64,000 bases of DNA from Thermoanaerobacter wiegelii Rt8.B1 (GTDB taxonomy: Bacteria > Bacillota > Thermoanaerobacteria > Thermoanaerobacterales > Thermoanaerobacteraceae): NCBI RefSeq assembly GCF_000147695.2, contig NC_015958.1:350501-414500 (forward strand), given 5' to 3'. The notes under the pieces are model-generated. The model saw nothing but the letters and a program-made list of their open reading frames with translations. It searched no databases and had not been told where the DNA came from. Both the position numbers and the translations under genes were made by a program. This document shows, in pieces, positions 9,683-62,139 of this stretch (its first letter is position 1; each line of letters opens with the position of its first letter).

Positions 9683-9711
9683 TTGACTATATTTGAAAAA
9701 TCGAATATAAT
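9683..9711 (+). promoter_or_regulatory. arsR promoter with embedded ArsR box 1
   Basis: TTGACT at 9683-9688 and TATAAT at 9706-9711 are separated by exactly 17 bases. The palindrome TATTTGA-AAAA-TCGAATA (9690-9707) fills the spacer and reaches the -10 element, the classic place for a repressor. The same palindrome occurs before the next three transcription units. Confidence 0.85.
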
Positions 9712-9732
9712 GTATATGAAAGGGTGAAAAAA

Positions 9733-10020
9733 GTGGAAGCTGACGTATATACTGAAGCTGCCGAATATTTTAAGGCATTATCTCATCCTACAAGGATAAA
9801 AATAATAGAACTTTTAAGCAAAAAAGAAATGTGTGTGTGTCAGATGATGGCAGCATTAAACTTAGATCAATCTCATGTATCAAGGCATTTGATGGTGTTA
9901 AGAGCAAACAAAATGGTAAAAACTAGAAGAGAAGGCACTATAATTTATTATTCTTTGACAGATAAAAATATCACAAATATTATTGACGAAGTAAAAAATG
10001 TTTTTTCTGTTAAAAAATAG
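9733..10020 (+). CDS. arsR: ArsR/SmtB-family metalloregulatory repressor
   Basis: This is a winged-helix repressor of about 95 residues. It carries FKALSHPTRIKIIELL at the N-terminus, then EMCVCQMMAALN, where the CVC pair sits at the start of the DNA-recognition region, as in arsenite/antimonite-sensing ArsR proteins (ELCVCDL motif). The recognition helix is DQSHVSRHLMVLR. I favour the GTG at 9733, since AAAGGG lies upstream at workable spacing; a GTG at 9724 is in frame. It is expected to bind the TATTYGA-N4-TCGAATA boxes at 9690, 10038, 11265 and 12440 and to release them on metalloid binding. The true inducer is not shown by the sequence. Confidence 0.9.
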   Translation: MEADVYTEAAEYFKALSHPTRIKIIELLSKKEMCVCQMMAALNLDQSHVSRHLMVLRANKMVKTRREGTIIYYSLTDKNITNIIDEVKNVFSVKK

Positions 10021-10037
10021 AGTTTTTTTACTTGATA

Positions 10038-10055
10038 TATTTGAATATTCGAATA
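10038..10055. promoter_or_regulatory. ArsR box 2
   Basis: TATTTGA-ATAT-TCGAATA is a near-perfect palindrome with the same four-base spacer as box 1. It follows a possible -35 TTGATA at 10032 and precedes the NifX-like gene by 27 bases. Confidence 0.8.
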
Positions 10056-10082
10056 TAGCAATATAAAAGGAGGTGAAAATTA

Positions 10083-10403
10083 ATGATAATTGCTTTTGCA
10101 TCAAAGAATCATCTTGGTTTAAATAGCGATATAGGAAATAACATTGCTTTATCAGAATATTTTACTGTTGCAGAAATTGAAAATGGCAAACTTAAAAAGG
10201 TTAAGAATATAGAAAACCCTTTTTTTAAAGAACAGGAAATAAATGCACAAAATTTTGTCGATTTTATCAAAAATACCAATGCACAAAAAATCGTAATTTC
10301 AGTTGTAGATAATGCTGACATAGAAAATGAGCTTTTATTAAATGATATAGAAGTTATAAAGAATGTAAATGGAAGGATAGCTGATATGTTGAAAGAGCTT
10401 TAA
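10083..10403 (+). CDS. Small NifX/NifB-like (Fe-Mo cofactor biosynthesis fold) protein
   Basis: This 106-residue protein fits the dinitrogenase iron-molybdenum cofactor biosynthesis family: an MIIAFASKNHLGLNSDIGN start, a middle IENGKLKKVKNIENPF and a C-terminal half rich in beta-alpha units. Such single-domain proteins in anaerobes bind metal clusters or act as chaperones; few have known roles. No nitrogenase genes are in the window. It has an ideal AGGAGG site and is the first gene of a three-gene unit with a ferredoxin and an HdrA-N-like protein, behind ArsR box 2. A link to metalloid stress is inferred from that box. Confidence 0.7.
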   Translation: MIIAFASKNHLGLNSDIGNNIALSEYFTVAEIENGKLKKVKNIENPFFKEQEINAQNFVDFIKNTNAQKIVISVVDNADIENELLLNDIEVIKNVNGRIADMLKEL

Positions 10404-10426
10404 ACACTGGAGAGGAGGTGAAACAT

Positions 10427-10633
10427 GTGGCAAAAAATTGGTATCCAATAATAGATGAGGATAAATGCATTCAGTGCTACCAATGTGTGAACTTTTGTCC
10501 ACACGACGTTTATACCATCGGTGACGATGGATATCCGGATGTTGTAAATCCAGACAACTGCGTGGAATTTTGCCGTGGATGTTCAAAAGTTTGTGATAAT
10601 GAAGCTATAACATATTTTGGAGATAGGAGGTAA
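10427..10633 (+). CDS. Small 4Fe-4S ferredoxin-like protein
   Basis: This protein of about 68 residues has two cysteine groups: CIQCYQCVNFCP, a standard CxxCxxCxxxC cluster motif, and CVEFCRGCSKVC, a second, spaced variant. It should carry two iron-sulfur clusters and move electrons in the cytoplasm. The GTG at 10427 is best placed behind GAGGAGG; a GTG at 10418 would overlap the site. The gene lies 23 bases after the NifX-like gene and 5 bases before the HdrA-like gene, so the three are surely cotranscribed. Confidence 0.85.
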   Translation: MAKNWYPIIDEDKCIQCYQCVNFCPHDVYTIGDDGYPDVVNPDNCVEFCRGCSKVCDNEAITYFGDRR

Positions 10634-10638
10634 TTTTT

Positions 10639-11010
10639 ATGAGCAAAAAAGGATTGCTTTTATGCGTATGCCAAGGTACTTGCCCATCATTTCAAGAAAT
10701 GGACACATTTGAAGTTTTAAACACTTTAAGAAGAGAGGGTATTTTTGAATGGGTAGGATTACATCCTCAACTTTGTGCAGATGATGGAGATAGGTATTTA
10801 AGGGAACTATTAAGAGGGGCACAAATAGATGAACTTTATGTCGCTGCTTGTGACCCTACAATGCAAAAGAAAATGTACAGAGATGCTTTTGACGATGTAG
10901 GCTTTCCTAGAGATAAGCACATTGGAATTGAAATAAGAAACATGAATACAGAGCAGGTTATAGATGAAATCAAAAAGGCTGTTTCTCAAAGAGAAGAATC
11001 TCAAAAATAA
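10639..11010 (+). CDS. Stand-alone HdrA N-terminal-like protein
   Basis: This 123-residue protein resembles only the N-terminal region of heterodisulfide reductase subunit A: LLCVCQGTCPS at the start, HPQLCADDGDRYL in the middle and YVAACDPTMQKKMYRDAF, matching the AACSPxxHExTFR motif of HdrA. The FAD domain and ferredoxin modules of HdrA are absent. Its cysteines could hold a cluster or take part in disulfide chemistry with the ferredoxin encoded upstream. The ATG follows TAGGAGG. It is the last gene of the unit, closed by a strong terminator. The specific reaction is unknown. Confidence 0.65.
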   Translation: MSKKGLLLCVCQGTCPSFQEMDTFEVLNTLRREGIFEWVGLHPQLCADDGDRYLRELLRGAQIDELYVAACDPTMQKKMYRDAFDDVGFPRDKHIGIEIRNMNTEQVIDEIKKAVSQREESQK

Positions 11011-11030
11011 ATTACTTTAACAAAAGGTGA

Positions 11031-11095
11031 AACTTCGATTACTGCTAAAACTAATAAATATTTAGCAGTAATCGAAGTTATACTTTTATAGTATT
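11031..11095 (+). terminator. Intrinsic terminator with long perfect stem
   Basis: A 19-bp stem (11031-11049 with 11061-11079, starting AACTTCGATTACTGC) encloses an 11-base loop and is followed by ATACTTTTATAG. It ends the NifX/ferredoxin/HdrA-like unit. Confidence 0.85.
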
Positions 11096-11234
11096 ACCAA
11101 TATTAAATTGTTTTATTATTGCTATTTTTTGAAAAAGAGAGAAACAATTAAGGAAGTCTTACAAAGATATGAATAAGAATGCTGTTTAAAAAGAAAAATA
11201 GAGGGTTAGTTAAAAGAGAGTTTAATATTATTTA
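11096..11234. other. Spacer before TDT promoter
   Basis: This short AT-rich stretch between the terminator and the next promoter has no supported gene and no clear structure. Confidence 0.4.
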
Positions 11235-11282
11235 TTGACATATGTTAATTATGTTGATATAATATATTCGTTAATTCGAATA
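11235..11282 (+). promoter_or_regulatory. TDT permease promoter with ArsR box 3
   Basis: TTGACA (11235-11240), a 17-base spacer and TATAAT (11258-11263) form a consensus sigma-A promoter. ArsR box TATTCGT-TAAT-TCGAATA (11265-11282) begins two bases after the -10, covering the transcription start. A strong promoter under a close operator suggests tight repression with high induced output. Confidence 0.9.
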
Positions 11283-11302
11283 TATTAATGGAGGAGCGAC
11301 CA

Positions 11303-12397
11303 ATGGAACACAGAATATGCTTTAACTGCATTATAAGGCACTTTTCACCGGCATGGTATGCATCCGTTATGGGTACTGGTGGATTTGCTAATGTTCTTTA
11401 TTTGTTAAGTGCAAGAATGCCTTTTTTAAAACCAGCAGCCGTAGCACTTTTCTTTTTAAATATATTTTTGTTTTTTATATTTATAATTCCATGGGTAGGA
11501 AGATGGTTTTTACATTTTGATAAATTAATAGAGGATTTAAAGCATCCAGTTATGTCTAACTTTTTTGTTACTATGCCCGTGGGAGGTTTAATTCTTGGGA
11601 CAAACTTTTTTATAATAGGTAAAGAATTTTTTAGCATGGCTTTTATTGTTATCTTAGGTACTATTTTGTGGATATATGGTGTTGCTCTTGCCTTAATTTT
11701 TGGAGTTTTTGTAACATACAATATGATGATAACAGAAAATATAGGACCTGAACTTACAAATTATTCATGGTATATCACTCCTGTTGCAAGTATTGTAGTG
11801 CCCTTGTTAGGAAATCTCCTTGTTAAAGTTTACGCAACAAAAAATGTTGAATTAGCAAAATTAATAAATATTACCGATGTAGCATTTTATGGAATTGGAT
11901 TAATGCTTTTTGTCATACTAAGCAGTATTATTTTAGGAAGATTTATAAGTCATAAAATGCCGCATGCTATAGCAGTACCAACTTTTTGGATTATACTTGG
12001 TCCTATTGGAGTAGGGACTGTAAGTTTGATGGGTATTGCCGATACATCAAAAATGATGGGACTTATTTCAATAGTTGATGGTATAAAAATGATTTCACTT
12101 ATTTTCTGGGGCTTTGGACTTTGGGCATTTGTGCTTACTGTTATAATAACAATTAAATACCTTATGGAAGGCGGAATACCTTTTTCGCTTTCATGGTGGG
12201 CGTTTATATTTCCACTGTCAGCATATACTTTGTCAGCTTATAATGTATTTATGTATACAAAAATCCAGCTTATATACTGGTATACAGTATTATTAGCAAT
12301 TTTACTTGCTATATTGTGGATAAGTACTTTTATAAAGTCTTTGATTGGAACGCTTAATGGGACACTATTGTTTCCTTCAGAAAGTAATAAGAAATAG
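11303..12397 (+). CDS. TDT-family (TehA/SLAC1/Ssu1-like) membrane permease
   Basis: This protein of about 364 residues has ten predicted membrane helices and belongs to the tellurite-resistance/dicarboxylate transporter family. That family contains TehA, plant SLAC1 anion channels and the yeast sulfite exporter Ssu1. The N-terminus has the typical FSPAWYASVMGTGGFAN; later come FFVTMPVGGLILG and PHAIAVPTFWIILGPIGVG, conserved in the fold. The ATG at 11303 lies behind GGAGG; an ATG at 11288 is in frame but has no site. Its ArsR box makes a metalloid or chalcogen oxyanion a sensible candidate substrate, but that is inference. Confidence 0.85.
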   Translation: MEHRICFNCIIRHFSPAWYASVMGTGGFANVLYLLSARMPFLKPAAVALFFLNIFLFFIFIIPWVGRWFLHFDKLIEDLKHPVMSNFFVTMPVGGLILGTNFFIIGKEFFSMAFIVILGTILWIYGVALALIFGVFVTYNMMITENIGPELTNYSWYITPVASIVVPLLGNLLVKVYATKNVELAKLINITDVAFYGIGLMLFVILSSIILGRFISHKMPHAIAVPTFWIILGPIGVGTVSLMGIADTSKMMGLISIVDGIKMISLIFWGFGLWAFVLTVIITIKYLMEGGIPFSLSWWAFIFPLSAYTLSAYNVFMYTKIQLIYWYTVLLAILLAILWISTFIKSLIGTLNGTLLFPSESNKK

Positions 12398-12400
12398 TCT

Positions 12401-12436
12401 AAATATTTTGGCCAGTAGGCCAAAATATTTTAGCTA
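12401..12436 (+). terminator. Hairpin after TDT permease gene
   Basis: The stem AAATATTTTGGCC pairs with GGCCAAAATATTT around a four-base loop. The T run is short, so read-through into the ACR3 gene is possible. Confidence 0.7.
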
Positions 12437-12439
12437 AAA

Positions 12440-12457
12440 TATTCGATAAATCGAATG
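12440..12457. promoter_or_regulatory. ArsR box 4
   Basis: TATTCGA-TAAA-TCGAATG is the fourth copy of the palindrome, 38 bases before the ACR3-like start. Only the last base departs from symmetry. No clear -35/-10 pair was found here, so this unit may depend on read-through or a weak promoter. Confidence 0.8.
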
Positions 12458-12495
12458 TTTGAAAGTTCTTTTTAAACCAAAAAGGAGTGTAAGAA

Positions 12496-13491
12496 ATGGG
12501 TAATCTTAAAAAATTGCAAAGCCATCTTAATAATTGGATGCTCATCTATACGTTGATATTGATGGTCGTTGGTGTTTTGATAGGCTATGATCATACTGCT
12601 ACTTCATGGGTAAAAGCAAATCAACAGTTTTTGACTCTTTTAAATACTGTTGCAGTTTTCTTTATCATCTATCCTATGATGGTAAATGTTAAACTTGAAT
12701 TGCTTTTAAAGTCAATTAAAAATTGGAAAGCATTGCTACTGAGTTTGATATATAACTTTGTTTGGGCACCGATTTTTGGATATTTTATTGCAACATATAT
12801 GATAAAAGATCCTACTTTGTCAATTGGATTTTTGCTGGTTATGGTGGTTCCTTGTTCAAGTATGAGTATTACTTATACAGGCCTTTCTGAAGGAGATGTT
12901 GAATTAAGCACTATGATTGTAGCTTTAAGTTTTATTGCTGCAATTTTTGCAGTTCCATTTTGGATGAGAATTTTTGCGTCTCATACGAATGTTCCTGTAC
13001 CGACAGGCCAACTGCTTATGTCTATATTAGAAGTTCTTATTTTGCCAATGATGTTAGGCTATTTAACAAGGACTTTGTTGGTGAAAGCTTTTGGAGAAGA
13101 GAAATTTAAAAATATACAACCAATTTTTCCATCTATATTTATAATTTCAATGTACATTTTAATTTTCTTAATATTTTTTAGTAAAGCCGGTATGATTGTT
13201 GATAAAATAGGGTTAATATTATTTTTGCTTATTCCAAATGCTATTTTTATAGCAATTACTCTTTTAGTTGTTACATGGCTCAATAAAGTATTCCATTTTT
13301 CATACAAGCAGCATATGGCCATTGTTTTCGCCAGTACTGGCAAAAACAATGGAACGGCTGTTGCTTTAGCTACCGCTGCTTTTTCCCCTATGGTTGCTAT
13401 ACCAGCAGCTACCATGCCTATATTTCAAATTATTCTGTTGATTTTATACTTAAAAGCAGCTCCATGGATAAAAAAGTATTATGATGAATAG
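12496..13491 (+). CDS. ACR3-type arsenite/BASS-superfamily permease
   Basis: This 331-residue protein has about ten membrane helices. It matches the ACR3 arsenite efflux family in the bile acid/sodium symporter superfamily. MVVPCSSMSITYTGLSEGD matches the ACR3 TM4 region that holds the essential cysteine, and FASTGKNNGTAVALA corresponds to the crossover TM9 motif. That motif differs from canonical ACR3 (TAASNNFELA), so the substrate may not be arsenite itself. The ATG follows AAAGGAG. ArsR box 4 precedes it. No ArsC reductase or ArsA ATPase lies nearby. Confidence 0.8.
   Translation: MGNLKKLQSHLNNWMLIYTLILMVVGVLIGYDHTATSWVKANQQFLTLLNTVAVFFIIYPMMVNVKLELLLKSIKNWKALLLSLIYNFVWAPIFGYFIATYMIKDPTLSIGFLLVMVVPCSSMSITYTGLSEGDVELSTMIVALSFIAAIFAVPFWMRIFASHTNVPVPTGQLLMSILEVLILPMMLGYLTRTLLVKAFGEEKFKNIQPIFPSIFIISMYILIFLIFFSKAGMIVDKIGLILFLLIPNAIFIAITLLVVTWLNKVFHFSYKQHMAIVFASTGKNNGTAVALATAAFSPMVAIPAATMPIFQIILLILYLKAAPWIKKYYDE
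13319..13352. repeat. 34-bp near-perfect palindrome inside ACR3 gene
   Basis: Each 17-base half matches the other with a single mismatch (CCATTGTTTTCGCCAGT for the left half). It codes for the TM9 crossover motif and may be a codon-level accident or a structured mRNA site. Confidence 0.85.
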
Positions 13492-14532
13492 TTGTGTTTT
13501 TAAAGAGAGGCGAAATTATCATAGTGTAAAATTATCGTAGGATTTTTTGTGTGAAAAAAACAAGAGACAACCCCTGTGATAAAATAGAACTTGGAAACAA
13601 AACATCACAGAAAGGGGTGTCTCTTGTGAACAAACATATCTTTGAGGATATTATACTACAAAATGCTCTAAATTTCACTAGAGAAGTGATAGAAATTTTT
13701 AGCGATTTATTAAACGAAGGAATGGATATTACAAGACTTGTAGCAAGAATAAAGGGAATCACGGACAAACTAGGTAGTGAAGTAATAGAAGCAATTATTG
13801 AAGAGTTAGATAGGATAATAAAAGAAGACAAGAGAAGGAAAGAAAAATGGATAGTAGAAAGAAAAGATAAAAAGAGGTTAACGACAATTCTTGGAGATAT
13901 TGAATATGAGATGACATATTACAAATCTAGGCAGGATGGGAGATATACATATTTGGTGGATGATGCATTAGAGATAGGGCGGCACGATAGGATAGAAAAG
14001 GGAGTAAAGATAAAGTTAGTAGAAAACGCGATAGAAGAATCATATGAAAGAAGTAGTAAAAAAGCATGTCCAGAGGAGCTAAGTAAACAGACGGTATTAA
14101 ACGCAATAAGGGAAATAGGGGAAGTAGAAGTAAAGAGAGAAATAAAAGAGAAGAAAGAAGTAAGGGTATTATACATATTATACATAGAGGCAGATGAAGA
14201 CCATGTACCTTTACAAGAGGGTGGAGATGAAACACCTCGATTGGTGTACATACATGAAGGGAGGGAAGAGAGAAACGGAAGAAACGTACTGAAAAATGTG
14301 TATTACAAGGCATACGTAGGAGAGAAAGCTGAAGACATATGGATAGATGTAGCAAATTACATAGAAGAAAATTACAAGGAAGAGAAGATAGAGAAGATAT
14401 ACATAGCAGGAGATGGGGCACCGTGGATAAAAGAGGGATTAGTGTGAAAGAGAAATAGTGAAAATTGGGCACGCCAAAAAGGGCACCAAATAAAGCCGCC
14501 CAGAATCCAGATAATGGTAATATATAATGATG

Positions 14533-15699
14533 TTAAGTAATTTTTGGAGGGATAATAGTACAACCTTCTTTTTCTAAAAGTTTAATAGCTTTCTTAATAT
14601 ATTGTTGCTTATGCTTTTGATAAAGTTTTTCTGGCATGTTAATGTAATCGGCGTCAGAAGGATTAAAAGGTTCCCTTTTCAAAAGCATATGATAGAGACA
14701 AGTAAGGATCATACGAGCAATAGCAACAATTGCCCGTTTATGACCGCGACGCTTTTTAATACGTTCATATTTAAGCCTAAAATAAGGATTCTTTTTATCC
14801 CTAATTGCTGCATTGGCACACTGTATTAAGAGAGGTTTTAAATAAACACCTGCTCTTGAGACATGGACAGCCGATTTCAGCGATGATATAAGTTGCCGAT
14901 TTTTCGGTTATGCCAGGGAGAGTAACAGCGATATCAATCAAGTCTTGATAAGGTTTGGCTAATTGAGAAATGGCTTTATCTAAATCAGAAACACATTGAT
15001 TGATAAAATCATAGTGTTTTCTGCAAACCTTCATCTTGATTGATTGATCATCCCTCAATTCGTATCCAATAATCGACTGAATTACGTCGTCAGCCTTTTT
15101 ATAAAGCCTTTTGTGTAGAAGTGACTTGCAGTATTCAGGGTCAAAAGTATCGCAAGTTAAGATATATCAATGATAGAAGAAGCAGATTTACCGAAAGAAT
15201 CAGTGACGACGGAGGCTAAAGCGATGTTGGATACGGTGAGGGCATTTTGAAGCCTGTTTTTTTCACTAGAGCGATGACCAATAAGTTTAAAACGATAGCG
15301 AACAAGTTCACGTAACATGCGGATATCCTTAGAAGGAATAAAACTAGAAGGGACAATATCGAATTTAAACAAATCGGCAATCCAAGTAGCATCTTTATCA
15401 TCGGTTTTTTGCCCTTTAATGGCACGGAGATACTTAGGATTAGCAATAACAACATGGCAGGATTTTTCAAGGACATTAAAGATTGGGATCCAATACTTAC
15501 CGGTGGATTCCATGCAGACTTCGAAACAATTGTAACTGAGAAGCCAATCCCTTAACTTAATAAGGTCAGAGTTAAAGGTAGAAAAGCGTCTTTTAACATA
15601 AGTAGTAACATTGTTAGAATCAGTAATAGCAATAGCAGCAACTAGGAATTTTTTGTGGACATCTATGCCACAGCAGATAGGGTGAACAATTTTTAACAT
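14533..15699 (-). pseudogene. IS110-family transposase, frameshifted
   Basis: The N-terminal RuvC-like DEDD domain is intact: CGIDVHKK, CMESTGKYW and DDKDATWIADLF. The frame breaks near 15157, where the next frame continues with TFDPEYCKSLLHKRLYKKAD, and again near 14890. About 30 residues are lost there, the region that normally holds the C-terminal Tnp domain's conserved serine. The last part reads to IIPPKIT and stops at 14533. The ATG at 15699 follows GGAGG. With both lesions this copy cannot make an active enzyme. Confidence 0.85.
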
Positions 15700-16007
15700 A
15701 AATAACCCTCCAAAAGAGAAAAAATTAAAATATATAGACATTGACTGAATATCCAGCACAAAAACACTAAGGAATTGCTTATACAATGATTAGTGTACGT
15801 GATCAGAGTCACACTTATTTGTGCTTGAGAAGATATTCTGCACATGTTAAAATGCGGACTTGAGTCCAATGAGTGGGAGAAATAATTCCACTCCCTCCTC
15901 CGTGCTTTGTAGTATATCTATATATTTTAAATAATTATATCAGAAAATATCGCTTAGAAGCATACTTTCATTACAATTTGTGCTTGAGCAAAGCGAAAGG
16001 ATGTTGG
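15700..16007 (-). ncRNA. Candidate IS110 bridge-RNA leader
   Basis: This non-coding segment lies between the element end and the transposase start. On the minus strand it has a TGATATAAT that can serve as a -10, followed by short stem-forming segments. Its place and length match the left-end leader from which IS110-group bridge RNAs are transcribed. The RNA fold and target-binding loops were not computed. Confidence 0.4.
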
Positions 16008-16684
16008 TTAGAATGGATAGTAAAATCAAGGTTTGTGTTAGACAGATATCATTTAAACAAATACGTATTAAAAGCTACATCGAAAGAGCCAAAGTATAGG
16101 GATAAGATATGGAGAGCAATAAATGAAGGAGATAAAGAGGGAGTGAAGAATATATTTGATGAACTAATAAAGAGAGTGGAGGAGGAAGAGAAAGAGAAGA
16201 TAAAAGAAGTAAAGAGATACATACTAAACAAATGGGAAGGGATAGTGATATACAGTAAAGACAAAGATGTAATAGGGTGCAGTGCAGAAGGGCATATAAG
16301 TCATGTATTTTCTTCTAGATTAAGTAGGAATCCATTAGGATGGAGTAGAGAAGGATTAAAGTTAATGGCGAAATTAAGAGTATTCAGCAAGAATGGAGGA
16401 GATTTGAGAGAAATAGAATGGGGTAAGAAAGAGAATATAAATGAAGGGAGCTACAAATTAACGAAGAAGCAAATAAAAGAGGCGGTAAGGAGAGTTAAAA
16501 CGTCTACAAATGAAAAAATAAACAATATTACGGTTTTGAATATAGGGAAAGTAACGCCAATATATAGGGTTTTAAGAGCATTAAAATATGCACAAGTTAT
16601 ATAAAAAGCATGATAAGTTGAAGGCTGAAATTAACTAAGTTTCAGGGGTTGTCTTAAAAAAATCCTACAGTATCTTGACACTAT

Positions 16685-17684
16685 CAAAGACGAAAAAGTA
16701 AAATTATTGTTTGACAAGCTTATTATAGCGACTGGTTCTGAAACAGTGAAGCCTCCTATTCTAGGGATTGATTTACAGGGTGTTATTTTTAGTGAAGATA
16801 TATTTAAATTAGAAGCTAAGCCTGCCTCTATTGTTATTATAGGTGGAGGATATATAGGGGTTGAGATAGCTTCTATGTTTGCAAGGGTAGATACAAAGGT
16901 AACTATTATTGAAGCGTTACCAAGGATTCTTACAAGTGAAGATGTCTCAATAAGCAAGGCGGTTACAGAGGAACTAAAAAATGATAATGTTAACATATAT
17001 ACGGATGCAAAAGTTTCAGCTATAGAAAAAGAAGGAGAAATATTAAAAGTAAATTATATACAAAATGGTGAAAATAAAACTGTTCAGGCTGAAAAAATTC
17101 TTATTGCTGTTGGAAGAAGACCACGTACAAAAGAATTAAATCTTGATGAGCTAAATATTAAGTTAGGAAATCATGGAGGAATTCCAGTAAATGAGTATAT
17201 GCAAACGGAAAATATAAATGTATATGCAACCGGGGATGTAAACGGAAGAATAATGCTTGCACATGCAGCGACGAGAGAATCTATTATTGCAGCAAAAGCG
17301 ATACTGGGAGAAAAAGTACCTATGACATATAATGCAATTCCCCATGCAATATTTTCTGAACCGGAAGCTGCAAGTGTTGGTATAGATTCAACAAAGGCCC
17401 AAGAGCTTGGTTATAAAATTGTACGATATTCTTATGAGGAAGATGCCAGGGCTCTTATTGTAGGTGATAAAAAAGGATTTGTCCAAATAATTGCCGACCC
17501 CAAAACACATAAATTATATGGTATGCAGATAGTTGGCAAAGGGGCCGGTGAATTGATTGCAGAAGCAACGCAGGTTATCAGAATGAACGGAAGAATTGAG
17601 GATATTATGGCAATTATACACACACATCCAACTTTGAGTGAGGTAATAGCGGAAGCAGTAGAAAAAGCGTTAAATAGCTTTTAA
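16685..17684 (+). pseudogene. Flavoprotein disulfide reductase (dihydrolipoamide dehydrogenase-like), headless
   Basis: The frame is open from the IS end and reads KLLFDKLIIATGSE, the NAD(P)-binding IIGGGYIGVEIA, VATGDVNG and the dimerisation domain with HTHPTLSE at the end, about 330 residues. Family members have about 450 to 460; the missing first 110 or so contain the FAD-binding GxGxxG and the redox CxxxxC pair. The ISLre2 end at 16684 replaces them. No start with a ribosome site exists upstream, so it cannot work as a reductase. It may have belonged to the metalloid block upstream. Confidence 0.85.
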
Positions 17685-17779: not shown

Positions 17780-18319
17780 ATGAATATTTTATATATTTCT
17801 GGGAGTCCAAGAAAAAAGAGTAACACTGATATTCTTTTAAAATTAACTATGTCAATTACGGGAGGCGAATTTATAAAGCTTATAGATTATAATATAAAGC
17901 CTTGCATGGCTTGTTGGGCTTGTCAAAAAGACGAAGAATGCCCTGTAGAAGATGACATGACAAAAAAACTTATACCGCTCCTTTTAAAAAGTGATGGAAT
18001 TGTGATAGGGAGTCCAGTTTTCTTTAACAATATTTCTGCTCAACTAAAGGCTTTTATAGATAGAACATGGTGCATAAAAGGACAGTTGCGAAACAAAATT
18101 GGCGGTGCTATTGTGGTGGGTAGAAAATATGGAGAAGAAAGTGCTATAACGGCTATAAATGCTTTTTTACTTAAGCACGATATGATTCCCGCAAACAGAG
18201 GCGTTTGTGGCATTGCTTATAAAGAAAGAGAAATTTTAAATGATACGGAAGCAATAGAAGCAACAAAAAGATTGGGAATGCGGATATTAGAGCTTGGAGA
18301 AATATTAGGAATTAAATAG
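17780..18319 (+). CDS. NADPH-dependent FMN reductase-like iron-sulfur flavoprotein
   Basis: This 179-residue flavodoxin-fold protein has the phosphate-binding loop ISGSPRKKSNTD at the N-terminus. The Cys-rich CMACWACQKDEECPVEDDM segment is typical of iron-sulfur flavoproteins, and GSPVFFNNISAQLKAFIDR completes the FMN site. It probably binds FMN and perhaps one 4Fe-4S cluster and passes electrons in anaerobic metabolism or detoxification. The ATG follows GAGGGGA. It sits alone between the headless flavoprotein and the TetR gene. Partner proteins cannot be deduced. Confidence 0.85.
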   Translation: MNILYISGSPRKKSNTDILLKLTMSITGGEFIKLIDYNIKPCMACWACQKDEECPVEDDMTKKLIPLLLKSDGIVIGSPVFFNNISAQLKAFIDRTWCIKGQLRNKIGGAIVVGRKYGEESAITAINAFLLKHDMIPANRGVCGIAYKEREILNDTEAIEATKRLGMRILELGEILGIK

Positions 18320-25259: not shown

Positions 25260-25283
25260 AATGTACAAGTCAATTTTTTAAAT

Positions 25284-25503
25284 GCGATGAAGTGGAGCAG
25301 TAGGCATTGTAAGCTTTAAGAGAGCCGTTGGTGGGTGCAAAACGGTAGCCTAAGATGCCGAAACTCGCCATGGAGCAGGCATACTGAAGTGTAGTAGGTA
25401 TGCACGGTTACTGCCGTTACAGGTTTAAGTGGGCTTATGCCAAGAAGAGTGGTACCACGGAAGTGCAAGTCTTTCGTCTCTTAAAGATGAAAGACTTTTT
25501 TTA
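25284..25503 (+). ncRNA. T-box riboswitch, leucine type
   Basis: The leader has the T-box core AAGAGTGGTACCACGG (25445-25460) and a Stem I with GAGAGCCGTTGG. The GAAACTCGCCATGGAG stretch places CTC (25364-25366), a leucine codon, at the specifier position. A terminator stem AAGTCTTTC / GAAAGACTT with a T run ends at 25503. Uncharged tRNA-Leu should stabilise the antiterminator and switch leuS on. Confidence 0.92.
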
Positions 25504-31244: not shown

Positions 31245-33154
31245 GTGCGCCCGGCATGGGCGATAACTAGGCGGTGAAAGTCCGCTGTGGGCTTGGTAGT
31301 GGGAACCACTAGCCAAGAGCAAGGGTGTCCATCGTGAGGTGGAATCTGAAGGAAGCTTAAGGCAAAATCTCGGTCTGATGAACAAGAACCAGATAAGAGG
31401 CTGAATTGGGATGGATGAGTTTGCGTAACAAAACGAAGTCCAACACTACCCGAATCCCATACAGTAAATCTGGCAGATATATGAGATGAAAGTTATCGTT
31501 CTTACCCGGGGAGGTCTCAAGGATAAGTCATGGAAGTAAAATCTGAAGTGACAACCCATGCAGTGATGTATGGCTGAACCTTGAGAAGTCAGCAGAGGTC
31601 ATAGTACTTATCTAGTCATGAATAGATAAGGAAGGACCGAACGTTAGGAGGTTTTGGAAATCTTATGGACTCGAAAGATATGCAGAGACTGCAGACAACT
31701 CAACAAAGAGGCTATCCGTTGAATAGAGAAATGGAATTTCAAAAGACAACGGAAGTGCATAGTATATCATCGGCGTCGGAAGATGGAAGAAACGAGGTAC
31801 AAAGATATACCGGCAAGATGCTTGAAATGATAGTAGAACGAGGGAACATGGAAGCAGCATACAAGCACGTTGTTGCAAATAAAGGAAGCCATGGAGTCGA
31901 TGGGATGGGAGTAGATGAACTTCTACCGTATCTCAAAGAAAACTGGGCAACCATAAAACAACAACTGCTGGAGGGGAAATACAAACCACAACCAGTGCGA
32001 AGAGTAGAAATTCCCAAACCTGATGGAGGAGTAAGACTACTAGGAATACCTACAGTACTAGACAGACTAATACAACAAGCAATAGCCCAAATACTAAATA
32101 AAGTCTACAACCATACATTTTCTGATAGCAGTTATGGATTCAGACCAGGACGCAGTGCAAAAGACGCAATAAAAGCCGCAGAAGCATACATAAATGAAGG
32201 ATACACGTGGGTTGTAGATATGGACTTAGAAAAGTTCTTTGACAGAGTAAACCACGACATAATAATGTCCAAACTAGAAAAGCGGATAGGAGATAAAAGG
32301 GTACTAAAGTTAATACGAAGATACCTAGAATCAGGAGTAATGATAAACGGAATCAAAGTATCAACAGAAGAAGGGACACCCCAAGGAGGGCCATTAAGTC
32401 CCCTATTAGCAAACATAATGTTGGACGAACTAGACAAAGAACTTGAGAAACGAGGGCATAAATTCTGCCGATATGCAGATGACTGCAACATATATGTAAA
32501 AAGCAGGTCTGCAGGAAACAGAGTAATGAAGAGCATAAAGAAATTCATAGAAAGCAAATTAAAACTAAAAGTCAACGAAGCAAAAAGTGCTGTAGATAGA
32601 CCATGGAGAAGAAAATTTCTTGGATTTTCATTCTATACAAAAGAAAACGAAGTAAGAATAAGAATCCATGAAAAATCCATCAAAAGGTTTAAGGAAAAAG
32701 TAAGAGAAATAACCAATCGGAACAAGGGAATAAGCATGGAAAACAGAATAAAAAGACTAAATCAAATAACAACAGGATGGGTCAACTATTTTGGATTAGC
32801 AGACGCGAAAAGCATAATGAAAACCCTTGACGAATGGATAAGGCGAAGACTAAGGGCATGTATATGGAAACAATGGAAGAAGATAAAAACGAAGCATGAT
32901 AACTTAGTAAAACTAGGAGTAGAAGAACAAAAAGCCTGGGTACGCCAATACAAGGAAAGGCTACTGGAGAATATCCAATAGCCCAATCCTAAATAAGACT
33001 CTTACAAATAAATACTTTGAAAGCATAGGTTATAAGAGTTTATCCCAAAGATATCTAATTGTACACAATTCCTAATGAACCGCCGTATACCGAACGGTAC
33101 GTACGGTGGTGTGAGAGGACGCTGAATAAAATAATTATTCAGCTCCTACTCGAT
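31245..33154 (+). mobile_element. Group II intron (about 1.9 kb)
   Basis: The 5' end GTGCGCCCGGC is typical of bacterial group II introns. A long structured leader precedes the intron-encoded reverse transcriptase. Near the 3' end the domain V-like hairpin (GAACCGCCGTATACCGAACGG onwards) and a domain VI stem (GCTGAATAA / TTATTCAGC) are visible, and the intron ends with CCTACTCGAT. Joining the flanks restores a plain tlp stop codon and the shared terminator, which fixes both boundaries. The site just after a terminator hairpin recalls class IIC, but the class was not proven. Confidence 0.9.
31665..33075 (+). pseudogene. ltrA: Group II intron reverse transcriptase/maturase, C-terminal frameshift
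   Basis: The reverse transcriptase is recognisable over 420 residues: GSHGVDGMGVDELLPYL, GYTWVVDMDLEKFFDRVNHD, the catalytic CRYADDCNIYV near residue 270 and the maturase WRRKFLGFSFY and ITTGWVNYFGLAD. The frame breaks at about 32938. The out-of-frame continuation (NTRKGYWRISNSPILNKTL up to YLIVHNS) ends at 33075, while the frame as it stands stops at 32981. A one-base deletion would restore it. No endonuclease domain is present. The ATG at 31665 follows GGAGG at long spacing. Confidence 0.88.
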
Positions 33155-55676: not shown

Positions 55677-55730
55677 AATTGGTGTACTATTGTAACGAAA
55701 GGACGAAATAAACTTAATATTTTATTACTT

Positions 55731-55876
55731 ATTCTCCGAGTCTGTAATCCTAGGGCAAGAGCTATGGATTATAGGCCGATAGGGTAGTGCTGGAAACGGT
55801 GCTGCCTCCCGCCTGGAAAGGAGAATAGGAAGGCTGCTATTCTCCTTTCGCATACTAAAACGAAAGGAGTTTTTTT
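55731..55876 (+). ncRNA. Molybdenum/tungsten cofactor riboswitch 1, OFF type
   Basis: The core has the Moco signatures CTCCGAG, GGCCGATAGGG, GCCTCCCG and GGAAAGGAGAA. P1 pairs ATTCTCC (55731-55737) with GGAGAAT (55820-55826). GGAGAATA (55820-55827) can instead pair with TATTCTCC (55838-55845) as an antiterminator. The terminator CTCCTTTCG (55842-55850) with CGAAAGGAG (55861-55869) and seven Ts overlaps that strand. Ligand binding should favour P1 and termination. Moco versus Tuco type was not resolved. Confidence 0.93.
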
Positions 55877-57370: not shown

Positions 57371-57584
57371 AAGGAGAATAACTCTCCGAGCCTTTATGTC
57401 TAAGGGGCGAAGAGCCCTATGAGATAAAGGCCGATAGGGTATTGATGGAAACATCAATGCCTCCCGTGTTGGAAAGGAGAGGCAATGCATTTGCATTTAT
57501 GCAAAGCAAGAATGCGTAAGGTAAAGTAATTGTGTCCTTGCTTTGCGAAAACGATGCAGTGCCTTCTCCGGAAGGCATTTTTTT
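57371..57584 (+). ncRNA. Molybdenum/tungsten cofactor riboswitch 2, OFF type
   Basis: The aptamer has CTCCGAG, GGCCGATAGGG, TGCCTCCCG and GGAAAGGAG. P1 pairs CTCTCC (57382-57387) with GGAGAG (57476-57481). GGAGAGGCA (57476-57484) can pair with TGCCTTCTCC (57560-57569), which overlaps the terminator stem TGCCTTC-TCCG-GAAGGCA (57560-57577) ending in seven Ts. A stem of GCAAAGCAAG/CTTGCTTTGC lies between them. It stands before tupA, so cofactor excess should shut off tungstate uptake. Confidence 0.93.
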
Positions 57585-57696
57585 GTACCTTTGTTAGGGA
57601 CTAATTTTAATGGTAAAAGCTAAAGAATGGAATCTTTCCAGTTTTAATAGGTAAGGTTTAAACAAAAACTAATAGTGATGATGGAGGATGAATACC

Positions 57697-58575
57697 ATGG
57701 CAAGAATATCAAAGAAGTTTTTGATGATCCTTTTATATTCTATTTTGTTGTTTAGTTTATTTTCTCTGAACGGTTGTACAGGTTCTAAAACTTCAGAGAA
57801 GATTTCCCCAGGTAATCGAGATGTAATTTTGGCGACAACAACAAGCACGCAGGATAGTGGGCTTTTGGATTACCTTTTACCGATCTTTGAGAAAGAAACA
57901 GGATACAAAGTAAAAGTGGTTGCCGTGGGGACAGGACAGGCTCTGGAGATGGGAAAAAGGGGGGAAGCAGATGTTCTTCTTACACATGCTCCTGCGGCAG
58001 AGAAAGAACTTGTGGACAACAAGGATGTTATAAACTATCAGTTGGTAATGCACAATGATTTCATTGTGGTTGGTCCTTCAGAGGATCCAGCGCAAGTTAA
58101 GAATGCGGTTTCAGTAGAAGCAGCCTTTCAGGCGATTGCTGAAAAAGGTGTACCGTTTGTTTCGAGGGGTGATGATTCGGGTACACACAAAAAGGAATTG
58201 AGTTTATGGAAAGCAGCAGGGATTGATCCCAAGGGGAAGTCGTGGTATATAGAAAGCGGCACAGGAATGGGACAAACGCTCCTTATTGCTAACGAAAAAC
58301 GGGCGTATACACTAACTGATCGGGGAACATACCTTGCATACCGCGATAGATTAGATCTTACCATTGTTCGAGAAGGAGATAAGGGTCTTCTTAATATTTA
58401 TCACGTCATGCAGGTTAACCCCGAGAAACATCCTGGGAAACACATAAACAGCGATGGAGCCAAAGCTTTTATAGAGTTTATGATTTCGCCCAGAACGCAG
58501 GAACTTATTGGCAAATTTGGGGTAGACAAGTACGGGATGCCGCTCTTTTTCCCAGATGCTCAAAAAGGGAATTAG
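57697..58575 (+). CDS. tupA: Tungstate ABC transporter binding lipoprotein
   Basis: This protein of about 292 residues has a signal peptide ending in the lipobox LNGC (Cys 27). The mature part has the tungstate-binding motif ATTTSTQDSGLLDYLLP of TupA/WtpA proteins, then GTGQALEMGKRGEADVLL, RGDDSGTHKKEL and GTGMGQTLLIANE. TTTS is the hallmark of TupA, distinguishing it from ModA. It captures tungstate outside the cell. The ATG at 57697 lies behind GGAGG. Riboswitch 2 is its leader. Confidence 0.95.
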   Translation: MARISKKFLMILLYSILLFSLFSLNGCTGSKTSEKISPGNRDVILATTTSTQDSGLLDYLLPIFEKETGYKVKVVAVGTGQALEMGKRGEADVLLTHAPAAEKELVDNKDVINYQLVMHNDFIVVGPSEDPAQVKNAVSVEAAFQAIAEKGVPFVSRGDDSGTHKKELSLWKAAGIDPKGKSWYIESGTGMGQTLLIANEKRAYTLTDRGTYLAYRDRLDLTIVREGDKGLLNIYHVMQVNPEKHPGKHINSDGAKAFIEFMISPRTQELIGKFGVDKYGMPLFFPDAQKGN

Positions 58576-58715
58576 AATTAAGATAGGGAGTTGTTACGTT
58601 GTTTTAAAAAGGCTTCGTTTAAAAAAGGCAAAAAGCTCGGATTTAGCCAAAAAAATGGGATTTTTTAAGCTTGATTGAGCTAATTACAAAATATTGAGGT
58701 AGGAGTTGAATAAAA

Positions 58716-59414
58716 GTGGAGCTTATCTGGGAAGGCCTGAAAGGAGCATTCAAGTTTCTTGTTCATGGGGATCCAGAAATCAGAGAAATTACTCTTCTTT
58801 CTCTTAGGATTGCTGCGTGGGCTATAGGGATAAGTTCAGTCATTGGCCTTCCACTTGGGATTGCACTTGGAGTAAGCACGTTCCGTGGCAGGGATTTTCT
58901 TCTGACTTTAGCCAATACCGGCATGGGACTTCCACCGACAGTTGTGGGGCTTTGGGTAGCTATTGTGCTATGGCGTACCGGCCCTTTAGGAGGATTAAAG
59001 CTGATTTATACTCCTACTGCCATCATCATTGCTGAAGTAATTCTTACCGTGCCTATTATTATAGCTTTGGTAGCTGCAGCTGCGTCGGATAAAAAAGCTA
59101 AATTACACGATTTTTTTCTTTCTTTAGGGTTGAACCCTCTTCAATATATGTGGCTTTTACTTCGGGAAATTCGTAGCTCAGTTTTAACAGCAATCATTGC
59201 CGGTTTTGGACGTGCAATTTCGGAGGTAGGAGCAGCAATGATGGTAGGAGGGAACATCGCTGGGGAAACCCGCACGCTTACCACCGCTATTGTTCTTGAA
59301 GTATCTAAGGGTGAGTTTGACCGCGCGTTAGCGATAAGTTTTGTACTTCTTGCCTTATCGTTTTCTATTACTGCCTTTATTACCCACCTTCAGTATCAAC
59401 AAAACTTAAAGTAG
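58716..59414 (+). CDS. tupB: Tungstate ABC transporter permease
   Basis: This 232-residue inner-membrane permease has about six helices and the ABC-type EAA loop region EVGAAMMVGGNIAGETRTLT. The N-terminus is PLGIALGVSTFRGR. It forms the channel of the tungstate importer with TupA and TupC. The GTG follows GAGGTAGGAG. The gene order tupA, tupB, tupC matches other bacteria. Confidence 0.95.
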   Translation: MELIWEGLKGAFKFLVHGDPEIREITLLSLRIAAWAIGISSVIGLPLGIALGVSTFRGRDFLLTLANTGMGLPPTVVGLWVAIVLWRTGPLGGLKLIYTPTAIIIAEVILTVPIIIALVAAAASDKKAKLHDFFLSLGLNPLQYMWLLLREIRSSVLTAIIAGFGRAISEVGAAMMVGGNIAGETRTLTTAIVLEVSKGEFDRALAISFVLLALSFSITAFITHLQYQQNLK

Positions 59415-59464
59415 AAGCGGGAAAAACAAGAAATAATTAGATTAAAGAAAGGAGGTAGAGGAGT

Positions 59465-60226
59465 ATGAATTATATGTTTGAACGCAAAGCTACCGATTTT
59501 CGGGATATAGAGAATCAAACGCCGGTTATTATAGCCGAAGATATTAGTGTACGGCGCAATGAACGCTTTATCCTGCGAAACATAAGCCTCGTTTTGCATC
59601 AAGGGGAACGTTTGGGACTTGCGGGTCCCAATGGTTCAGGAAAAAGTACGCTCCTTAAAGTCTTATCCTTACTAATTCCACCGTCTTCTGGGAGGCTTAC
59701 AGTTCTTGGCTTTATGGGAGACGGGCGGTCTTCAGTGACTGTTCGCCGAAAGATGTCTATCGTCTTTCAACAACCGACGACGCTCACAGGGAGTGTTTTG
59801 CAAAACGTGAGTATTCCCCTGCGCATGCGAGGACTTTCTGCCCGAGAAGCAACCAAGCGGGCATATGAGTGGCTTAAGTGTTTTGATTTAGAAAAGCTTG
59901 CTTTTCAGCGGATACATACGCTTTCTGGGGGAGAACTTGCACGTCTTCAGCTAGCAAGGGCGTTTGCTATGGAACCGGAAATTTTGTTCCTTGATGAACC
60001 TTTTGCAGCAGTGGATGCTACTTCACGCAGTCCACTAAAGGTCCTTCTTCGGGAGATTCTGGCAAAAAACAAGGTTTCACTGCTTCTTATTAGTCATGAT
60101 TTTCGTGACCTTCTCGATCTTACTGAGCGCACGCTGGTTCTTTTGGATGGGCACATTGTTGCACAAGGTAAAACCCAAACTTTGCGCATACAATCTCCAC
60201 TCGTGCGTGAGATTTTTCCGGAGTAA
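59465..60226 (+). CDS. tupC: Tungstate ABC transporter ATPase
   Basis: This 253-residue ATPase has Walker A GPNGSGKST, Q-loop IVFQQPTTL, signature LSGGELARLQLARA and Walker B ILFLDEPFAAVD. It hydrolyses ATP to drive tungstate uptake through TupB. The ATG follows AAGGAGGTAGAGG. Codon use is richer in G/C than its neighbours, as in tupB, hinting at different origin. The next gene unit starts 180 bases on. Confidence 0.95.
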   Translation: MNYMFERKATDFRDIENQTPVIIAEDISVRRNERFILRNISLVLHQGERLGLAGPNGSGKSTLLKVLSLLIPPSSGRLTVLGFMGDGRSSVTVRRKMSIVFQQPTTLTGSVLQNVSIPLRMRGLSAREATKRAYEWLKCFDLEKLAFQRIHTLSGGELARLQLARAFAMEPEILFLDEPFAAVDATSRSPLKVLLREILAKNKVSLLLISHDFRDLLDLTERTLVLLDGHIVAQGKTQTLRIQSPLVREIFPE

Positions 60227-60407
60227 AGTTTTTCGGGATACAAAGGTTGCTCAATATGTCTCTACTCTAATACTTATTTAAGCAGTTTGCGAAAAAAGTT
60301 TTTTATTTCAAGTAGAAGGAATACTAATTACTATACTTTTATTATAAATGAAGGCAGGATAAAAAAATAAATTAGTGAGGAAAAGCAAGAAAGGGGATGA
60401 TAAATTA
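60227..60407. other. Spacer between tupC and moaB
   Basis: AT-rich; no gene or clear structure. Confidence 0.4.
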
Positions 60408-60905
60408 ATGATTAAAGTTGCTATTTTGACTGTTAGTGACAAGGGTTTTAGAGGAGAGAGAATTGACACAACATCATCTGCTATAAAAGAAGTTTTAGAT
60501 CCAGCGATATATTCTATTGAAGAAATAAGAATCGTTCCAGATGAAATAGAAGATATAAAACGTGAACTAATAAGATTTTGTGATGAATTAAAAGTTGACC
60601 TTGTTTTGACAAATGGAGGAACTGGATTTTCAAAGAGGGACGTAACACCAGAAGCAACGATGGCTGTGGTTGAGAAATTGGTTCCTGGAATTCCAGAAGC
60701 AATGAGGGCAAAGTCTTTAGAAATAACTCCACATGCTATGCTATCTCGTGCAGTTGCAGGAATTAGAAAGAGCACTTTAATCATAAATCTTCCAGGAAGC
60801 CCTAAGGGGGCTGTTGAAAACTTAAATGTTGTTTTACCTGCTCTTAAGCATGGAATTGAGATTTTAAAGGGTGAAGCTTCAGAATGTGCAAGAAAGGACG
60901 ATTAA
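60408..60905 (+). CDS. moaB: MoaB/MogA-type cofactor biosynthesis protein
   Basis: This 165-residue protein of the MogA/MoaB fold adenylates molybdopterin before metal insertion. It has AILTVSDKGFRGERIDTTS, the binding loop TNGGTGFSKRDVTPEAT and NLPGSPKGAVENL. The ATG at 60408 lies behind AAAGGGG; a longer frame from 60375 includes that site and is not favoured. It is followed by moeA with only one base between. Confidence 0.92.
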   Translation: MIKVAILTVSDKGFRGERIDTTSSAIKEVLDPAIYSIEEIRIVPDEIEDIKRELIRFCDELKVDLVLTNGGTGFSKRDVTPEATMAVVEKLVPGIPEAMRAKSLEITPHAMLSRAVAGIRKSTLIINLPGSPKGAVENLNVVLPALKHGIEILKGEASECARKDD

Positions 60906-60906
60906 A

Positions 60907-62130
60907 ATGGAACTTTTAAAACTTGTTACAGTAAAAGAGGCAAAGGAGATAATAGAAAAAAATATTAGTTTTAAACCTGGCATAGAGAAAATAAGTATTT
61001 TAAATTCGTTAGGAAGGATTTTAGCAGAAGACATATATGCACCGGAAAATGTTCCCGATTTTAGAAAATCAACCGTTGATGGATATGCTGTGATTTCGAG
61101 TGATGTTTTTGGAGCGAGTGAGAGTTTACCTGCAATTTTAAAGCTTGTTGGAGAAGTCAAGATAGGAACGGAACCAACCCTGGATATAATGCCAGGAGAG
61201 TGCATGTATGTTCCAACAGGGGGTATGCTTCCTAAAAGTGCCGATACTGTTGTTATGATTGAATACACAGAAAAACTTGATGATGAAACTATTTTAGTCA
61301 ATAAACCAGCTGCGCCCTTTCAAAACATAATTGAAATTGGAGAAGATGTAAAAAAAGGTGAACTCATTTTAAAAAAAGGCACAAAATTGAGACCCTACGA
61401 GATAGGGGTTTTATCAAGTCTTGGAATATTAGAGGTGGAGGTTTATAAAAAAGTAAAGGTTGGAATTATTTCCACAGGCGATGAGATAGTGGACCCTAAG
61501 GAGAAAATTAATAAAGGACAGGTCAGGGACATAAATAGCTATCTGTTATACTCTCTGTGTCTTGAAGAAGGAGCAGAGCCTGTTCTATACGGCATTGTTA
61601 AAGATGATTATGAAAAATTAAGAGAGAAATTGCAAGCGGCAATAAGTGAATGCGATTTAGTTTTGATGTCGGGTGGCAGTTCAGCCGGCAACAAAGATGA
61701 AACTCTCAGGGTTATAGGTTCATTTGAAAATTCGAATATTTTTATTCATGGAGTTGCTATACGACCTGGGAAACCTACGATTGTTGGAAAAGTAGGGGAT
61801 AAATTCATATTTGGACTTCCGGGGCATCCACTGGCCTGTGCGGCAATATTTAAAACCCTTGTTATTCACTATTTGGACAGGATAAAGAATTTTGAAAGAG
61901 AAGAATATCCGGTTGAGTGCAGGTTTGCCGTAAACTATCATAAGGCTGAGGGTAGAGCAGAATTTTTACCTATTAGTATAAAAGAAGCGGAAGGAAAATT
62001 AATTGCGTATCCCACTTATTATGAATCAGGGCTTATATCTCGTTTTGCAAAATCCTTTGGATATGTTTACATTGAAAAAGAATTAGAGGGCATATCTGAA
62101 GGACAAATAGTTAAAGTTTATAAATTTTAG
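60907..62130 (+). CDS. moeA: MoeA-type metal insertase
   Basis: This 407-residue protein has four MoeA domains: FRKSTVDGYAVIS near the N-terminus, VPTGGMLPKSADTVVMIEYTE, then GIISTGDEIVDP, and the central GGSSAGNKDETLRV and RPGKPTIVGKV motifs. It ends in the small barrel domain. It inserts molybdate or tungstate into adenylated molybdopterin. The ATG at 60907 follows GAAAGG and lies one base after the moaB stop. Confidence 0.95.
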   Translation: MELLKLVTVKEAKEIIEKNISFKPGIEKISILNSLGRILAEDIYAPENVPDFRKSTVDGYAVISSDVFGASESLPAILKLVGEVKIGTEPTLDIMPGECMYVPTGGMLPKSADTVVMIEYTEKLDDETILVNKPAAPFQNIIEIGEDVKKGELILKKGTKLRPYEIGVLSSLGILEVEVYKKVKVGIISTGDEIVDPKEKINKGQVRDINSYLLYSLCLEEGAEPVLYGIVKDDYEKLREKLQAAISECDLVLMSGGSSAGNKDETLRVIGSFENSNIFIHGVAIRPGKPTIVGKVGDKFIFGLPGHPLACAAIFKTLVIHYLDRIKNFEREEYPVECRFAVNYHKAEGRAEFLPISIKEAEGKLIAYPTYYESGLISRFAKSFGYVYIEKELEGISEGQIVKVYKF

Positions 62131-62139
62131 GAGGGTGCT

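Follow-up and report, generated by a model that had tools for sequence, protein, structure and literature searches.

A putative ArsR-controlled metalloid-response regulon built around a ferredoxin and a stand-alone HdrA N-terminal domain in Thermoanaerobacter wiegelii

Arsenic detoxification is best known through enzymes that draw on thiols or glutathione, and through dedicated efflux pumps. In the canonical ars operons (arsRBC, arsR-arsC-acr3) the metalloid genes are controlled by an ArsR repressor with a CxC site and by operator boxes placed over the promoters. In 2010, genes for CcdA, thioredoxin (Trx) and redox-disulfide proteins in ars operons were taken to form a putative arsenate reductase system (PMC2963123), and both ArsR control and an arsenic response have been reported for hgcAB (PMC10349881). 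Here we describe a block of genes at positions 9683-13491 of a 64,000-nucleotide stretch of the Thermoanaerobacter wiegelii Rt8.B1 genome (contig NC_015958.1, positions 350,501 to 414,500; hereafter the window, to which coordinates refer unless a locus or contig is named), which shares its repressor type and operator boxes with the canonical systems. It differs from them in having no arsC, arsB or true acr3, and in carrying genes for a NifX-like protein, a ferredoxin, a stand-alone N-terminal domain of the heterodisulfide reductase protein HdrA (hereafter HdrN), a TDT permease and a non-ACR3 SBF transporter in separately boxed units. An initial annotation of this DNA had pointed out the lack of arsC and arsA, which our searches bore out, and its calls of the NifX-like, ferredoxin, HdrA N-domain and TDT genes were likewise upheld by profiles and structure models. 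We regard the block as a variant of the ars regulon, the core of which, an orphan HdrA domain together with its ferredoxin, appears undescribed. All of its genes and promoters, as well as the hairpin reported below, lie on the forward strand.

The HdrN gene (10639..11010) encodes a protein of 123 amino acids, for which no Pfam family was obtained at the threshold used, and which was identified through a sequence profile, an AlphaFold2 (AF2) model and a fold search. The profile matched HdrA chains in the PDB (6.7e-6) with the conserved cysteines in register, and the AF2 model (pLDDT 92) gave VIA Z scores of 11.8-13.4 to HdrA over ~120 residues, with the next fold at 8.8. While it shares this fold with the N-domain of HdrA (5odc, 7bkb, 8rvy), HdrN consists of that domain alone, and is devoid of both the flavin adenine dinucleotide (FAD)-binding TrxR domain and the ferredoxin domains of HdrA. 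Five of its cysteines (C9, C11, C15, C46 and C71) are invariant in 102 sequences, and four of these have conserved counterparts in the HdrA N-domain, which is an iron-sulfur (Fe-S) domain. In HdrA, one of the ligands of this domain's cluster is Cys197 of the other HdrA subunit (PMC9012536). Given that HdrN has no partner domain and possesses the additional invariant C15, it could complete its cluster site alone, with C15 taking the place of the partner-subunit ligand.

Immediately upstream lies the gene for a two-cluster ferredoxin (Fdx; 10427..10633, with the open reading frame (ORF) open from GTG 10418; Fer4, 4.5e-10), typified by a KNWYPIID...CVEFCRGC motif, the KNWYPIID start of which is conserved in an alignment of 89 sequences. 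The arrangement recalls HgcAB, where in anaerobes ArsR likewise adjoins a gene for a small two-cluster ferredoxin. However, the block contains no HgcA corrinoid protein, and the ferredoxin reached 41 bits against a cut-off of 99 with the HgcB model NF040864, by which an identity with the mercury-methylation ferredoxin is ruled out. Two HdrN-associated ferredoxins from other loci (L061:5792-6019 and L071:5785-6000) show a CxxDxxC pattern, in which an aspartate replaces the second cysteine of the first cluster.

The ferredoxin-HdrN pair was recovered at more than 100 loci in anaerobic bacteria and archaea, among them Thermotogae, Dictyoglomus, Caldiserica, Chloroflexi, Omnitrophota, Geobacter and its relatives, Thermococcus and others; plasmid records yielded no HdrN relative. 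Neighboring genes were labeled by BLAST against seeds drawn from the same loci, with the 'ArsC' label also catching some ArsR proteins. In the HdrN set, which represents the best 80 of 101 database matches and leans to near relatives, a ferredoxin was found near HdrN in 90 of the 102 loci and an ArsR in 71, along with CcdA (31), Trx-like proteins (28), ArsP (27), ACR3 or an SBF relative (24) and Trx (22). At least one arsenic effector label was present at 49 of the 102 loci, and the label densities drop with distance from HdrN, which served as an internal control. Genes for ArsM, ArsD and DUF2703 also accompany HdrN, as do those for ACR3 and ArsP, in many phyla, and DGC and NifX-fold proteins are further recurrent partners. 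The gene kinds of the thiol-redox ars operons (PMC2963123) flank HdrN in many loci, whereas the text of that paper makes no mention of ferredoxin, iron-sulfur or HdrA. The thiol/disulfide link proposed at the outset is supported by the presence of CcdA, Trx and Trx-like genes near HdrN in relatives, and by a lipoamide-dehydrogenase-like gene that once stood behind SBF (see below). Together with the box found at a true arsenic operon (see below), these neighborhoods across many phyla support an association of the module with arsenic. We found no description of the ferredoxin-HdrN pair in the open-licence literature, with earlier notice elsewhere being possible; the pair is the probable core of the regulon and an apparently undescribed, widespread companion of arsenic-resistance genes in anaerobes.

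The initial annotation had placed four ArsR-type boxes in the block and joined them into a single regulon. A motif scan of the window with the pattern TATTYGANNNNTCRAATA located all four at the positions it gave, as exact matches at 9690 and 10038 and with one mismatch each at 11265 and 12440; the consensus upstream of the four units may be written as TATTYGA-N4-TCRAATA, and no strand is assigned to the boxes. Box 1 (TATTTGAAAAATCGAATA, 9690..9707, exact) fills the 17-bp spacer between the TTGACT and TATAAT elements of the arsR promoter (9683..9711, 11 of 12 consensus positions), and is kept ahead of arsR in relatives from several genera. Box 2 (TATTTGAATATTCGAATA, 10038..10055, exact) lies upstream of the NifX-Fdx-HdrN unit and is kept ahead of NifX-like or Fdx genes in relatives. 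Box 3 (TATTCGTTAATTCGAATA, 11265..11282, one mismatch) is found directly past the -10 element of the TDT-unit promoter (11235..11263; TTGACA, 17-bp spacer, TATAAT), which agrees with the consensus at 12 of 12 positions, and is kept ahead of TDT in four other loci (L012, L013, L035 and L036). Box 4 (TATTCGATAAATCGAATG, 12440..12457, one mismatch) precedes the SBF gene, and its counterpart is exact in loci L128 and L135. Of the three good promoters originally claimed at these boxes, the promoter scan bore out those at boxes 1 and 3; the one at box 2 looks weaker, and none was recognisable at box 4. Boxes 1 and 3 thus placed occupy repressor positions, in the spacer and just past the -10 element respectively. 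Between HdrN and TDT a hairpin at 11023..11087 (RNA fold -32.6 kcal/mol, z -8.7), a likely terminator, likely ends the HdrN unit. The sole other site with one mismatch in the window, at 61721, was judged a chance match because it falls inside the moeA coding sequence. Matches with three mismatches were no commoner in the window than in shuffled sequence, and only strict sites were counted.

The box is closely confined to this gene set. Throughout the 2.79-Mb single-contig genome there are four exact boxes, namely the two reported above and two at a second ArsR-NifX-Fdx-HdrN cluster (C1:1558-1560 kb), and hence none at unrelated genes. Across 37 genomes of the class we counted 39 exact boxes, 27 of them no more than 2.5 kb away from an HdrN gene, in ~0.09% of the DNA; a reversed-pattern control yielded 10 sites overall in the same genomes. 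A binomial probability for this clustering counts the genomes as independent and gives rough guidance only. The 12 exact boxes remote from HdrN are about as many as those of the control; most of those inspected fall within unrelated coding sequences, and the others comprise the arsenic site of genome G010, a remnant with SBF/TDT fragments and one orphan. A search for the box in relatives from the same and other genera and families showed that it, or a form with 1-2 mismatches, precedes arsR and the gene for the NifX-like protein or ferredoxin, including in genomes that lack TDT and SBF, and that it also precedes TDT and SBF where a genus has them. In G010 the same box occurs in the divergent region between a major facilitator superfamily (MFS) gene and a true arsR-arsC-acr3 operon (acr3 435 bits, cut-off 282.8), and in locus L129 a relative of this MFS gene and a lipoamide-dehydrogenase-like gene come after HdrN, behind a box of their own. 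The positions, confinement and conservation of the boxes support the proposal of one ArsR regulon, and the predicted control of all four units by ArsR is well supported in silico.

The presumed regulator, an ArsR/SmtB protein (9733..10020; HTH_5, 1.7e-14; NF033788, 98.4 bits, cut-off 55), more likely starts at GTG 9733; the reading frame extends back to GTG 9724, a codon overlapping the Shine-Dalgarno sequence, and the ArsR proteins of relatives begin at VEADVY. The CVC metal pair attributed to it is indeed present and is of the CxC type. Both cysteines of this vicinal site are found in 50 of the 59 ArsR proteins adjoining HdrN, even though these belong to different ArsR groups. This points to As(III) or Sb(III) as the most likely inducer. 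The first gene behind box 2 (10083..10403) codes for a NifX/NafY/orange-protein (ORP)-fold protein, which has no cysteines and missed the gathering cut-off of PF02579 (5.6e-4, 20.6 bits, cut-off 26.3). Its AF2 model (pLDDT 96) gave VIA Z scores of 17.0 to TM1816, 16.9 to PH0822, 14.6 to apo-ORP and 11.0 to NifX, with the first unrelated row at 7.7. The predicted membership in this family is therefore weak by sequence but firm by fold, and the block offers no nitrogenase context.

Two permeases follow. The TDT/SLAC1-family protein (11303..12397; PF03595, 212.7 bits, cut-off 27.9) more likely starts at ATG 11303, with its ORF open from 11288. It did not reach the tellurite/dicarboxylate subfamily model TIGR00816 (187.8 bits, cut-off 237.25), and the suggested involvement of tellurite or chalcogens in general is backed by nothing beyond the family name. 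The second is an SBF-family transporter (12496..13491; PF01758, 124.3 bits), the C-terminal end of which was altered by an insertion sequence (IS). It is distantly ACR3-like, and its designation as an altered ACR3 holds as a resemblance only: with TIGR00832 it scored 97.9 bits against a cut-off of 282.8, and while the ACR3 cysteine is kept (VPCSSM aligns with the PCTAM/RCIAM motif), the glutamate of the NxFEL motif is lost, with KNNGTA in place of SNDFELA. This subfamily is rare in the phylum; among 398 genomes, the strong matches were confined to the same genus and both adjoin this cluster, and one further match was distant. Since profile searches of the rest of the genome turned up neither an ACR3 above its cut-off nor an ArsB or ArsP, the SBF protein is the best candidate for arsenite exit, with the missing glutamate as a warning.

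Taken together, these observations make it probable that the block serves a strict anaerobe as a metalloid-response regulon under ArsR control, in which Fdx and HdrN pass electrons to thiol or arsenic chemistry and the permeases export the product. In such a scheme ArsR would sit on the TATTYGA-N4-TCRAATA boxes at or near the four promoters, and would be released once a trivalent metalloid, As(III) or Sb(III) being the likeliest, occupies its CxC site. Its release would switch on the NifX-fold protein, the two-cluster ferredoxin and HdrN, as well as TDT and the SBF/ACR3-like carrier, the latter once followed by a disulfide reductase whose gene is disrupted in this strain. Reduced ferredoxin would then deliver electrons to the HdrN cluster, and HdrN might in turn reduce a thiol/disulfide partner (thioredoxin-like proteins, regeneration of ArsC) or an arsenic-thiol adduct, with TDT and SBF exporting the product or counter-ions. 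That such a small, highly conserved Fe-S pair accompanies ArsR and arsenic genes in anaerobes across many phyla suggests that anaerobic metalloid handling draws on low-potential electrons from ferredoxin. It also hints at what a lone piece of heterodisulfide reductase might do, and the two genes can be put to the test in a thermophile amenable to cultivation. More tentatively, Fdx and HdrN may constitute a detoxification enzyme or redox relay, driven by ferredoxin and so far undescribed, that serves anaerobic arsenic metabolism in bacteria and archaea, with the lone HdrA N-domain completing a [4Fe-4S] cluster by means of its own extra cysteine.

Several observations weigh against the metalloid-response regulon. 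Nine of the 59 ArsR neighbors of HdrN are without the full CxC, and 18 of the 102 HdrN loci lack both ArsR and any arsenic effector within the stretch examined, many of these stretches being short. The G010 box is closer to the MFS gene than to arsR. Arsenite export by the SBF carrier is not assured, given the missing ACR3 glutamate. Furthermore, the only over-cut-off arsenate reductase gene of the genome is unlinked (C1:1126768-1127154) and has no exact box nearby, so that any electron supply to ArsC would be unlinked here.

Other explanations share part of this evidence. The invariant CxCxxxC and two further cysteines of HdrN would suit an As(III)/Sb(III) metallochaperone or buffer that hands the metalloid to the permeases as ArsD does to ArsA, with the ferredoxin keeping it reduced; in Geobacter OR-1 (L110) HdrN lies near two arsD genes, beside a cluster ordered arsA, arsD, ORFs, arsD that matches the published second arsenic island (PMC4319506). 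We consider this unlikely, as four of the five cysteines correspond to those of an Fe-S domain and the ferredoxin so frequently found beside HdrN would be needless for a chaperone. A direct enzymatic role, with HdrN-Fdx acting as a metalloid reductase or desulfidase (such as a ferredoxin-dependent one for arsenate, thioarsenate or methylated As(V)), is likewise unlikely. In its favor, the reducing power of reduced ferredoxin is sufficient, ArsR-Fdx-HdrN operons without ArsC stand alone in relatives from several phyla, and thioarsenates arise in sulfidic settings (PMC6205960); against this, no catalytic cofactor is evident beyond the Fe-S clusters, and ArsC genes are often present too, even allowing for the ArsR proteins caught by that label.

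The module might also answer sulfur stress (persulfide, sulfite or polysulfide), with ArsR sensing a sulfur species, TDT exporting sulfite-like anions and HdrN-Fdx handling sulfane sulfur. TDT/SLAC1 permeases include sulfite exporters, and BigR-like ArsR repressors sense sulfite or persulfide; the ArsR of the window matches a BigR-like model weakly (69 bits, cut-off 155), and some HdrN loci include genes for OsmC, DGC, rhodanese and Trx nearby. The cysteines of this ArsR are nevertheless those of the vicinal CxC of As(III) sensors, arsenic genes such as ACR3, ArsP, ArsM, ArsD and DUF2703 are the companions of HdrN across phyla, and the same box stands at the arsC-acr3 region of G010, which together render this account unlikely.

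The regulon has suffered damage in this strain. A remnant of a lipoamide-dehydrogenase-like disulfide oxidoreductase gene (16707..17684, forward strand) keeps the C-terminal two thirds and has lost the N-terminal part, and in a genome of the same species (G017, L135) the intact gene directly follows SBF. Here ~520 bp have given way to IS sequences (ORFs 13551-14447, 14801-15786 and 15873-16604), whereby the SBF end was altered and the lipoamide-dehydrogenase-like gene was truncated; we interpret the latter as an original fifth regulon member broken here by IS insertion. In the second cluster of the genome (~1559 kb) ArsR, NifX-like, Fdx and HdrN are intact, and the TDT gene (L127:4542-5590, about C1:1557-1558 kb) is broken into three frames. 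Other members of the genus no longer contain the module or have broken HdrN copies, and one retains an orphan box. The module is therefore dispensable, in keeping with a stress response. An orphan exact box is located in genome G024 (L168:4001-4018), ~20 nt behind an M28 peptidase gene, where the ArsR-Fdx-HdrN module is lost.

Behind the broken disulfide reductase lies a gene of the NADPH-dependent FMN reductase family (17780-18319), the position of which is kept in L128 and L135. The transposase-like ORF pair 13551-14447 and 15873-16604 is split by a minus-strand IS110-like element (14801-15786), and positions 1-682 of the window hold a 96.5% identical copy of part of this pair. Elsewhere in the window we noted a T-box leader (25278-25484), a group II intron (31328-33154, three Rfam matches) and two molybdenum/tungsten-cofactor riboswitches detected with Rfam (55722-55839 and 57372-57495), the latter being directly upstream of anion-binding protein/ABC transporter genes (57688-60226), with mogA/moeA-like genes (60375-63999) behind them.

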